DNA of 46,703 bases, taken from contig CALHTB010000032.1 of the NCBI GenBank assembly GCA_938038785.1, positions 1 to 46,703 of the forward strand, in the 5' to 3' direction. Below, piece by piece: positions 6,327 through 9,394 of this stretch (within the stretch, counting starts at the first letter, position 1; each line of letters begins with the position of its first letter). The notes under the pieces were generated by a model that saw only the letters and a list, made by a program, of their open reading frames with translations, ran no database searches and was not told the origin of the DNA. Both the position numbers and the translations under genes were made by a program. Source of the stretch: an uncultured Acidimicrobiales bacterium. Lineage in GTDB: Bacteria > Actinomycetota > Acidimicrobiia > Acidimicrobiales > SHLQ01.

Positions 6327-7634
6327 CTAGCCGTTCACCACTTCACGGAGCGGGGGCCATGTCTCGCCCTCCCCTAGGATCTCGGCGTCAGCAATGGCAT
6401 CGGCCGCCTCAATGGGCGATGCCTGGAGCGCGTCGATCTTTCGCACCTGCTTACCAAGCTGGTTTGTACGTGCGCCTGCAAGCTCGTTGAACGAATTCAT
6501 TGCAGTGGTGAGCTGCTTGCCGTGCTTATCGACCTGACCAGAGAACTTCTCCCACTCCTTCTTGAAGTCGGCGAGGCAATCCATAATCTCGTTGCTGCGC
6601 TGCTCGAGCATGAAGTTGTCCATTGCTTGGCGGACGACCTGCAGTACGGCAATGAGCGTGCTTGGGCCACACAGCACAATCTTTGCTCGCATGGCCGTGT
6701 CCATGAGCTCGGGGTCGTTCTCCTGCACAAACGAGAAGATGCTCTCGTTCGGGATGAACAACACGACGGTGTCGACCGAGTCCGATTCCTCGTGGTAGCG
6801 GCGCGCAGCTAACTCCTTCACGCGGTCACGGGCATCTTTGATGAATTGCTTACGAAACCCTTCTACTTCCGGAGAGCCGGACTGCTCGGCTTCGAGAAAG
6901 TTGAGATAGTTGTCGGCAGGGAACTTCACATCCATGTGCAGCACCATCTGACGCGGCATCAACACGGTGAAATCGGGACGACCGCCCGACTCGATACCCT
7001 TTTGCACCCGGTAGTTCACGCCCTCGACCATGCCCGCATGGTTGAGTACGTCCTGAGCCATTCGCTCACCCCAGTTTCCACGCTTGCGCGAGTTGCCGAG
7101 TGCGTCCCGCAAGCTACCGGTGGTTTGCTGGAGCTGTGTGGTCACCTGGGCAGCCTGGCGAAGCTGGGTCACAACGGCACCGTGCTGACCCGATGTCTTT
7201 TCTTGGAGGTCGGTGATCATCTTCTCGATACGCAACATCTCGCGGCGCACCTCGTGATTCTGCTTCTCGATGACCGATGTACTCGAGTCATACTTTTGTC
7301 GGCCCAACTTCATATTCGCTTCGAGCTTTTCGGCTCCACGCTGGAATCGCGCGTCGAGCTGTTCGGTGCCGGCGCGCATATGCGCGTTGAGCTTCTGTTC
7401 GGCGACTTCGGCAGCGCGAGCAACGGCGGTATCGACGGTGACCATCCGCTCACGGCCTAAGGCATCTGCGGTTGCCCCTCGCTCGACCAGTGCGGCCTTA
7501 ACGGCTGCGGCCACCGCCTGGTCGGTTCCGGCCGCCGCATGGGCTTCACCGGCGCGGCGCAAAAGAAAGAACAACGCCGAGAATCCAATAGCGAAGCCGA
7601 CGAACATGATGAGGGTGAGGGGGAGAAGTTGCAT
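6327..7634 (-). CDS. rmuC: RmuC-family protein (DNA recombination protein RmuC)
   Basis: The start is set at ATG 7634 because residues 2-25 then form a clean membrane anchor (LLPLTLIMFVGFAIGFSALF) and a TANNNT box lies 7 bases upstream; the open frame continues further without similarity. The 435-residue product has a long coiled-coil-rich region (about 30-200) and then the RmuC domain: NWGERMAQDVLNHAGM, GGRPDFTVLMP, and DVKFPADNY, the last two forming the PD-(D/E)xK-like core. RmuC is thought to be a nuclease limiting rearrangements at inverted repeats. It stands alone between metG and the divergent DUF3179 gene. Confidence 0.9.
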   Translation of the reverse strand: MQLLPLTLIMFVGFAIGFSALFFLLRRAGEAHAAAGTDQAVAAAVKAALVERGATADALGRERMVTVDTAVARAAEVAEQKLNAHMRAGTEQLDARFQRGAEKLEANMKLGRQKYDSSTSVIEKQNHEVRREMLRIEKMITDLQEKTSGQHGAVVTQLRQAAQVTTQLQQTTGSLRDALGNSRKRGNWGERMAQDVLNHAGMVEGVNYRVQKGIESGGRPDFTVLMPRQMVLHMDVKFPADNYLNFLEAEQSGSPEVEGFRKQFIKDARDRVKELAARRYHEESDSVDTVVLFIPNESIFSFVQENDPELMDTAMRAKIVLCGPSTLIAVLQVVRQAMDNFMLEQRSNEIMDCLADFKKEWEKFSGQVDKHGKQLTTAMNSFNELAGARTNQLGKQVRKIDALQASPIEAADAIADAEILGEGETWPPLREVVNG

Positions 7635-7641
7635 GAAGAAC

Positions 7642-7647
7642 ACAGTA
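7642..7647 (-). promoter_or_regulatory. Leaderless -10 element of rmuC
   Basis: TACTGT is followed by 7 bases and then ATG of rmuC at 7634. It supports the chosen start. Confidence 0.55.
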
Positions 7648-7666
7648 GAGATGGGGTATGACAACA

Positions 7667-7749
7667 ACTTCTCGGCACTTCCGGCCGAGATCCCCACGTT
7701 GCTTTCACGTTCAGTCTGACTTCTTCGCACTCCCGGCCGAAATCCGCGG
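7667..7749. repeat. Imperfect direct repeat in rmuC/DUF3179 intergenic region
   Basis: Two 31-base copies, 7667-7697 and 7719-7749, lie 52 bases apart in the 168-base divergent intergenic region. Both contain ACTTCT, GCACT and CCGGCCGA-ATCC blocks. They could be a duplicated regulator site or a remnant of a coding duplication. Confidence 0.5.
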
Positions 7750-7802
7750 AAATGACTTTGCTCAAGCGGGAAGTCTGACGACCGTCCACGGGTTTCGAGC
7801 TC

Positions 7803-8849
7803 GTGCAGCATGCGGCTACCCCACCGGAACGAATCCGAACTCTTGGGCTCGCCCTCGTTGGCTTGCTCGTAATTAGCACCTGGGCGTTTTGGCCATCGAG
7901 CCAAGCCCAGGTCACCGCGGCAGGCGTTCGGGTCAACGCACAATCGGCGTACAACCCGGTACTCGGCGGAGAACAACTACCCGCCGACTTCCGACAAATT
8001 TTGCCCCGCGACGCAATCCAGCCGATCTATGACCCAACGTTCGCCCCTGCCGGCCAAGTTGACTGGCCCGACTCGACCGATGTGATCGGCGTTTCGTTCG
8101 GCACCGAGGCAAAGGCCTACCCTGTCGCCCACCTCAATGGCCGCGAGCTGGTCATCGACGAGGTCGACGGCATCCCCATACTCGTCAGTTGGTGACCGCT
8201 CTGCGCAACGGCGATGGTCCATCGCCGCCAGGTTGAAGACGAAACCCTCATCTTCGGCGTGCACGGAGCACTGCTCGGCAATGCAATGACGTGGTGGGAT
8301 CACAGCACGGGGTCAATCTGGACACAACCCACCGGCGAGGCAATCGCTGGGCCTCGCAAGGGTGAGGTTGTCGAGTTGTTGCCGTCCCAGTTCACGTCGT
8401 GGGGTGCGTGGAAAGAGCTTCACCCGCAGACCCAAGCCCTCGATGTGCGCGCCGGACCATCGTCGTTCGACCTCACCGATTTCCTCATCGTCGTCGATTT
8501 CACGGCGCAAGCTCGGGCATACCCGGTTCCCGACCTACGTCGGGTTGGGGTAATCAACGACATCGTGGCCGACGTTCCAATTGCGGTCGTGAGCGACCCG
8601 GCCGACCCAACCCGCTGGGCCGTGTTCTCTCGAACAGTTGGCGGCGAGGTACGCGAATTCGACATGGTCGATGGGGCGCTCGTCGATCGGTCCACCGGCT
8701 CCTCGTTCACCGCGGCCCGAGGCATCGGGATAGAGGGTGAACTCGCCGACGAAATCCTCGACCAGCTCGCCGGCTTCACCGCGTTCCCGTCGGACTTCCC
8801 CACATTCTGGCCCGATGGGACCATCTGGCAGGAAGGAGACCCTCGATGA
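7803..8849 (+). CDS. DUF3179 domain selenoprotein (in-frame TGA decoded as Sec131)
   Basis: One reading frame runs from GTG 7803 to the stop at 8847-8849, interrupted only by TGA at 8193-8195. Read through, it gives 348 residues: a membrane anchor/signal at about 13-32, then a DUF3179 domain. Family landmarks lie on both sides of the TGA: LPRDAIQPIYDP, GTEAKAYPVAHLNGRELV, GIPILVSW before it; PLCATAM, LIFGVHGALLGNAMTWWD, TGSIWTQPTGEAIAGP after it. The TGA falls on the first Cys of the C-P-L-C motif, so the protein reads U131-P-L-C134. A strong hairpin follows at SECIS distance. A nonsense-mutated gene is the alternative, but the exact Cys position, intact downstream domain and hairpin make selenocysteine much likelier. 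The molecular function of DUF3179 is unknown; a thiol/selenol redox role is inferred. No start lies further upstream (stop at 7776). It overlaps the next gene by 4 bases. Confidence 0.85.
8209..8227 (+). promoter_or_regulatory. Candidate bacterial SECIS hairpin
   Basis: A perfect 8-bp stem (CGGCGATG/CATCGCCG) with loop GTC begins 14 bases after the TGA at 8193-8195. The loop G lies 21 bases beyond the TGA. Bacterial SECIS elements lie just downstream of UGA and carry GU at the apical loop bound by SelB, so size, distance and loop agree. Extra pairing CAAC (8206-8209) with GTTG (8232-8235) is an alternative extension. The residues encoded here (VHRRQ, where the family typically has VFDRR) depart from the family pattern, as expected if RNA structure constrains the codons. 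Confidence 0.75.
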
Positions 8850-9394
8850 GCAGCTTTCCTATCTTTCTCCGGATCGACACGGGCACCTGGTCCCGAGCTC
8901 AAGCCGAGACGCTGCCTCGCCGAACCCTCACCGTCGTGGGCGCGTTCGCCCTAGCTGCGTGGAACCGGTTTGGGGCCCAAGGGTTTCTCGGTCCCCGAGC
9001 GCCAATTCGACTCATGCTGACCGGACTGTATGGCTGGCTAGCGCTCACGTTCGTCATCTGGCTCGTGGCGCGGAGCCGAGAGGCATCGGTGCCGGGATCG
9101 GCGACATACACCCTCCAACGCACGGCCGCAGCCGTGACCGTTGCACACTTTCCGCTCATCATTCTCGGTTTCTACATCGCAACGTTCGGTGCGTTCATTC
9201 GCACACCAGTGCCGGGCACGCTCTTGGCCGTCGCGGTCTTCGCCTTCTGGATTCCCGCACTGCTGATCAAGGCAATGCAACACCTGGTCGACACGAGCTC
9301 AACCACAGCACTTCTTCTCATTGCCGTCCCCTACCTCCTTTGGCTCGGGTGGATTGGGCGCTACCTGTTCGTGCAGGTTGGTCACCTGCTCTGA
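8846..9394 (+). CDS. Multi-pass membrane protein, coupled to DUF3179 selenoprotein
   Basis: A 182-residue protein with about five hydrophobic helices (roughly 28-44, 57-76, 94-117, 123-144, 150-178). I do not recognise a family; the layout resembles Yip1-like small membrane proteins, but this is weak. The ATG overlaps the stop of the DUF3179 gene (ATGA), and AAGGAG lies 8 bases upstream, so it is translated well and in step with the selenoprotein. A joint membrane function is inferred from this coupling. Confidence 0.8.
   Translation: MSSFPIFLRIDTGTWSRAQAETLPRRTLTVVGAFALAAWNRFGAQGFLGPRAPIRLMLTGLYGWLALTFVIWLVARSREASVPGSATYTLQRTAAAVTVAHFPLIILGFYIATFGAFIRTPVPGTLLAVAVFAFWIPALLIKAMQHLVDTSSTTALLLIAVPYLLWLGWIGRYLFVQVGHLL

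Follow-up and report, generated by a model that had tools for sequence, protein, structure and literature searches.

Can two open reading stretches that are separated only by a TGA triplet belong to a single selenoprotein gene? The question is raised by a locus within a window of 46,703 nucleotides (nt), the whole stretch of DNA that was analysed, from an uncultured Acidimicrobiales bacterium (contig CALHTB010000032.1 of assembly GCA_938038785.1). On the plus strand of the window, positions 7803-8192 and 8196-8849 form one open frame with the TGA at 8193-8195 as its sole interruption. The original prediction had read the two stretches as one protein of the DUF3179 family with selenocysteine (Sec, U) at the first cysteine (Cys) of a C-P-L-C motif, and its coordinates and frame are correct. 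Sequence comparison indicates that the gene very probably encodes a selenoprotein in which the UGA at 8193-8195 is decoded as Sec. In the proposed mechanism this decoding would be carried out by SelB and tRNA-Sec, with a hairpin in the messenger directing it. What standard annotation would present as two genes thereby becomes one selenoprotein gene. The features on which this reading depends are as follows.

7803 to 8849, plus strand: DUF3179 selenoprotein gene, 348 residues with Sec131, putative GTG start (the earliest possible in frame) and TGA stop at 8847-8849
8193 to 8195, plus strand: in-frame TGA taken as selenocysteine (U131), conserved in homologous loci and stop-bearing relatives
8193 to 8204, plus strand: U131-P-L-C134 motif, the second Cys invariant (75/75 and 35/35 rows)
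8209 to 8227, plus strand: hairpin CGGCGAU-GGUCC-AUCGCCG of 7 base pairs (bp), with its apical loop at 8216-8220 and the loop start 20 nt past the UGA
8214 to 8849, plus strand: false open reading frame of 211 amino acids with an internal ATG start, expected from ordinary annotation and present in the open reading frame list

One Frame Across the TGA

The Pfam profile of DUF3179 (PF11376) matches the read-through protein with 175.5 bits (curated cut-off 27; E-value 2.2e-51), and the best-matching stretch, residues 69-217, spans the TGA, which bears out the proposed continuity of the family across it. NCBIfam gave no match to the read-through protein. The protein belongs to the selenoprotein form of DUF3179 (UxxC/T), since an in-frame UGA stands in for the first Cys of CxxC and the second Cys is kept. 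The frame downstream of the TGA is under purifying selection, with nonsynonymous (pN) values of 0.22-0.29 and synonymous (pS) values of 0.53-0.67 between the window gene and nine relatives.

If the TGA were a true stop, the locus would hold either two genes or a decaying one, with a 130-residue product and a separate 211-residue product from 8214. Open frames at 7803-8195 and 8214-8849 do exist mechanically, the latter being the false second gene that had been foreseen. However, selection continues to act on the frame past the TGA, Cys-containing homologues cross the TGA site stop-free, and the internal ATG lies within the conserved core, where it encodes the Met of TAMVHRR in the hairpin region (Met in 59/75 rows). 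A TGA also occupies this position in 79 of 80 homologous loci kept from the contig scan described below, which are named mostly as Actinomycetota and Chloroflexota. A true stop is therefore very improbable.

Conservation of the TGA Among Homologues

Homologues were collected in two ways. In a set of 118 related genomes, own genome included, the rows matching the PF11376 profile were checked for in-frame stops. DUF3179 is present in 46 of these genomes, and 17 rows have one in-frame stop. Every one of these stops is TGA, and all 17 are located at the first Cys of CxxC (14 UPLC and 3 other motifs). In a scan of GTDB contigs, 118 loci were confirmed and 80 kept, 12 of which are apparently already among the related-genome rows. 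The TGA form occurs in 79 of the 80 kept loci, a ratio biased towards Sec forms because the search patterns were derived from Sec forms; locus L213 has TGC only and L180 has both in tandem. Homologues with an in-frame TGA at the CPLC position, which the original prediction had named as a check, are thus found in both sets. Judging by the record names, the scanned loci belong mostly to Acidimicrobiia or other Actinomycetota and to Chloroflexota, with three filed as Acidobacteria, and Sec-type DUF3179 is thereby extended to two bacterial phyla.

The three stop-bearing rows with other motifs (L066, L067 and L068; UTLC, UVVC and UAIC, the UAIC gene being cut by a contig end) have hairpins of differing sequence at a similar position, as seen in single-sequence folds without a control. 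The DUF3179 family may have acquired Sec on more than one occasion. In a 107-row tree, 81 Sec forms lie inside one supported 85-row group (99/97, midpoint root) in which four Cys rows from three loci are nested; these counts are rough, since 12 of 33 Cys loci were left out, three Cys loci were entered twice and L066-L068 are absent. At L180:5001-6700, on a contig named Acidimicrobiaceae, a Cys and a Sec copy of DUF3179 stand in tandem. The Cys copy retains the hairpin sequence and perhaps reflects a recent Sec-to-Cys change.

The genome of the window itself (3.67 Mb, 134 contigs, 73% complete) contains five DUF3179 genes, of which three are stop-free and two have one TGA, namely the window gene on contig C32 and a second Sec-type gene on C56 (G000:C56:971-1918, L070, minus strand). 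The two Sec-type proteins share 42% identity, and the genes have the same hairpin. A sequencing or assembly error, in which TGC was misread as TGA, could be suspected in an assembly of this fragmentation and completeness, but the same TGA in the second copy and in 79 other loci makes such an error barely conceivable.

Selenocysteine Machinery in the Genome

Genes for Sec incorporation were detected in the same genome: SelB with 285.7 bits (cut-off 242), SelD with 267.4 bits (cut-off 125) and tRNA-Sec with 66 bits (cut-off 47; anticodon tca). The genome thus holds the combination of tRNA-Sec, SelB and SelD that serves as the criterion for a bacterial selenoprotein. Of the sel genes that had been expected, selA alone was not found in this assembly, a gap that speaks against Sec decoding; a lack of all of them, which the original prediction took as grounds for giving up the reading, is not observed. 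The selB frame continues up to the edge of contig C52 (3186 nt), and in 10/10 same-genus genomes selA is matched no more than about 150 nt upstream of selB. Given the position of selB at a contig end and that of selA in relatives, the absence of selA is best explained by the assembly. At the end of this contig (G000:C52; L008:2560-2658) a short sequence is repeated twice beyond the selB start, and this repeat may be the cause of the assembly break.

All 12 genomes with a TGA-containing DUF3179 have tRNA-Sec and SelB above the cut-offs, and 11 of the 12 have SelA. The association between tRNA-Sec and TGA-containing DUF3179 has a P of 0.28 within the DUF3179 genomes and of 0.004 over all 118, uncorrected for kinship. 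The test is weak within the DUF3179 genomes because 42 of the 46 have tRNA-Sec anyway. Among genomes without DUF3179 the tRNA is less common (35/72), also uncorrected for kinship.

An independent selenoprotein in the same genome is the formate dehydrogenase alpha subunit (FdhA) at G000:C9:118872-120737 (L240), in which a TGA occupies the first position of U-H-A-P. This is a canonical Sec site, for which a review table gives the motif UHxP (PMC13188914). The hairpin of this gene has the loop GGUCU, close to GGUCC in the window; its stem has only 4 bp by the Watson-Crick-only measure because G-U pairs are excluded there. A piece that matches the first 51 positions of the FdhA profile is located about 2.6 kb from L240.

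A Hairpin of the Bacterial SECIS Type

The window hairpin has a 7-bp stem and a 5-nt loop starting with GG, and the minimum free energy (MFE) of the 30-nt piece containing it is -12.8 kcal/mol. An energy fold adds one closing pair, leaving the loop GUC. The selenocysteine insertion sequence (SECIS) of E. coli fdhF is a near comparison for this element. The constraints on bacterial SECIS (bSECIS) elements in section 5 of a review are a loop of 3-9 nt, a stem of 4-16 bp, a G in the first two loop positions, a UGA-loop spacing of 16-37 nt and an MFE of at most -7.5 (PMC13188914). The window hairpin, with its stem, its loop and its spacing of 20 nt, fits these constraints and is classed as bSECIS-type. 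The hairpin DNA is almost invariant across 14 genes, and the 13 other proteins are 37-62% identical to that of the window.

The stability of the hairpin was compared with that of synonymous-codon shuffles that used the codon usage of each gene, the rows being related and not independent. The Sec subfamily (83 rows, 81 with TGA and 2 with TGC) has a mean z of -2.21 with 94% of rows below -1, and the Cys homologues, covering 20 of 33 loci, have a mean z of -0.15 with 25% below -1. The hairpin of the Sec subfamily is more stable than its synonymous shuffles and therefore exceeds what the protein code demands, a signal that the 20 Cys homologues lack. In 49/79 contig-scan TGA genes the TGA is followed by a fitting Watson-Crick stem of at least 7 bp, compared to 19/1272 TGAs of the window (both strands, own included). 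The hairpin can serve as a handle for finding further such genes.

This stability also bears on the possibility that the TGA is decoded as Trp or Cys, or is simply leaky, instead of encoding Sec. A TGA followed by C is a leaky stop context, and C follows the TGA in 81/81 rows. Nevertheless, the gene uses TGA as its own terminator, tRNA-Sec, SelB and SelD are all in the genome, and the protein code alone does not account for the hairpin stability. Decoding other than by Sec, or leakage, is for these reasons highly unlikely.

Base changes in the stem give a mixed picture. Over 81 rows the 7-bp stem is paired in 91.4% of cells, and 23 cells are changed on both sides. In 17 of 19 Chloroflexota rows the hairpin differs from the bSECIS model in that the stem register is shifted by one and the loop is longer; the shifted stem is paired in 90.2% of cells. 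Clear compensations are present in L200 and in the Chloroflexota rows L217 and L228.

Several observations on the hairpin count against the Sec reading. Fourteen of the 23 double-change cells are U-G pairs attributed to the 17 shifted rows, so that the count holds little real covariation, and no double changes occur within those 17 rows. RNAalifold on all 81 mixed rows returned no pairs, probably because of the shifted Chloroflexota register. Against dinucleotide shuffles the window hairpin is not unusual (z -0.95; three others -3.11, -0.47 and -0.13), and the stem of L163 contains a G-G mismatch. Furthermore, z is below -1 in 5 of the 20 Cys homologues, and good folds are also given by the Cys genes of L213 and L180 (first copy). 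Taken with the conserved TGA and the Sec machinery of the same genome, the bSECIS-type hairpin nevertheless supports Sec in place of the first CPLC cysteine, as originally proposed.

Relation to Known DUF3179 Selenoproteins

Two reviews include DUF3179, with the motif UxxC/T, among the selenoprotein families, and both credit it to Zhang and Gladyshev 2007 and the Olavius algarvensis symbiont (PMC9312934; PMC13188914). Since the family is already listed, the window gene is not the discovery of a selenoprotein family. The listed proteins and the window protein share the Pfam family (PF11376) and Sec as the first residue of UxxC. They differ in that the title cited for the listed proteins names a symbiotic deltaproteobacterium, whereas the relatives here are Acidimicrobiia-like and Chloroflexota, and the DUF3179 entries of the two reviews give no hairpin, fold or histidine (His) marker. 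The "(seleno)protein" label mentioned in the original prediction also exists, as "DUF3179 domain-containing (seleno)protein" in 3 of 20 listed plasmid records (H5, H10 and H13). Among the papers searched, none coupled DUF3179 with Rieske, and none coupled selenoprotein with "Rieske fold". What is added here is the RNA element, the relatives in two phyla, the predicted double Rieske-like fold and the His that marks the Sec subfamily.

Predicted Fold and Function

The following features of the protein were located.

7842 to 7892, plus strand: N-terminal hydrophobic stretch, residues about 14-30, a signal peptide or anchor by sequence
8064 to 8402, plus strand: predicted first Rieske-like half, residues about 88-200, carrying U-x-x-C and D166-H167
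8298 to 8303, plus strand: D166-H167, of which D is also kept in Cys-type homologues and H marks the Sec subfamily
8478 to 8837, plus strand: second half (residues about 226-345), likewise predicted to be Rieske-like, a degenerate duplicate that lacks CxxC

An N-terminal hydrophobic stretch is found in 73 of 79 genes tested and a lipobox-like motif in 22 of 79, the window gene being without the latter. The window protein is probably located outside the cytoplasm, either exported or membrane-anchored. Its two halves descend from a common ancestor (hhalign probability 99.3, E 1.3e-20), and both are predicted to be Rieske-like. The fold comparison is a second look at the top 1000 Foldseek matches, among which the Rieske-fold structures 1vm9, 2qpz, 8hn2 and 3c0d are listed at a sequence identity of 6 to 19%. 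The last of these (nitrite reductase small subunit) is of the NirD type, with a Rieske fold and no cluster. No thioredoxin-like structure is among the rows listed from these matches, which is uninformative on a thioredoxin fold. A PDB sequence search with the DUF3179 protein gave nothing below E 0.5, and no Rieske Pfam model matched 75 members at E up to 5, with filters that drop weak matches.

The ligands of the Rieske [2Fe-2S] cluster are provided by C-x-H and C-x-x-H motifs. Both are absent from the window protein, in which Cys or Sec occurs only at 131 and 134 and His at 3, 110, 140, 154, 167 and 207. DUF3179 thus differs from the Rieske [2Fe-2S] proteins (1vm9, 2qpz, 8hn2) in having no cluster motifs and a duplicated domain. 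The protein would consist of two tandem Rieske-like domains, the first holding the likely active site, U131-x-x-C134 with D166-H167-x-T169, and the second being a degenerate copy that would have lost it.

The predicted double fold, together with the Sec-linked His, offers a testable structural idea for this uncharacterised family, in which the Sec site is either a redox pair or a metal centre. The most likely reading, with about an even chance, is that U131 pairs with C134 as a selenothiol redox couple acting on a substrate outside the cytoplasm, which it would reduce or oxidise, while H167 would assist by tuning the selenolate of U131. The original prediction had suggested a thiol/selenol oxidoreductase; its selenoprotein part is upheld, and its enzymatic part stays conjectural. 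The predicted Rieske-like fold also admits a metal site. The lack of a conserved redox partner gene in 81 loci counts against the redox role as well.

Alternatively, U131 and C134 could bind a metal or iron-sulphur centre within a Rieske-like domain. The fold would allow this, but the ligand motifs are missing, U131 and C134 are the only thiol or selenol residues, and Cys-type homologues seldom keep H140 or H167 (2/35 each), which leaves such a centre unlikely. A more speculative proposal, and a slightly more doubtful one, is that a duplicated Rieske-like DUF3179 lost its Fe-S ligand loops and that Sec-x-x-Cys arose in the first domain, giving a new kind of metal or redox centre bound through selenolate, in which Cys134 and either His167 or His140 would take part, outside the cytoplasm of Acidimicrobiia and Chloroflexota.

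Neighbouring Genes

The gene that follows the selenoprotein gene overlaps it at ATGA.

8846 to 9394, plus strand: small Yip1-like membrane protein (a weak match, 25.9 bits with a cut-off of 28.6)

The neighbourhood analysis revealed no general partner gene across 81 loci. The Yip1-like membrane family occurs in 15 of the 81 and is hence no general partner; a CcdA-like protein was noted in 7/81 and a TlpA-like protein in 6/81, both named by eye. On the opposite strand, the longest open reading frame of an RmuC-family gene (6327-7976 of the window, minus strand) extends into the beginning of the DUF3179 gene, and the true start of the RmuC-family gene is probably further in.
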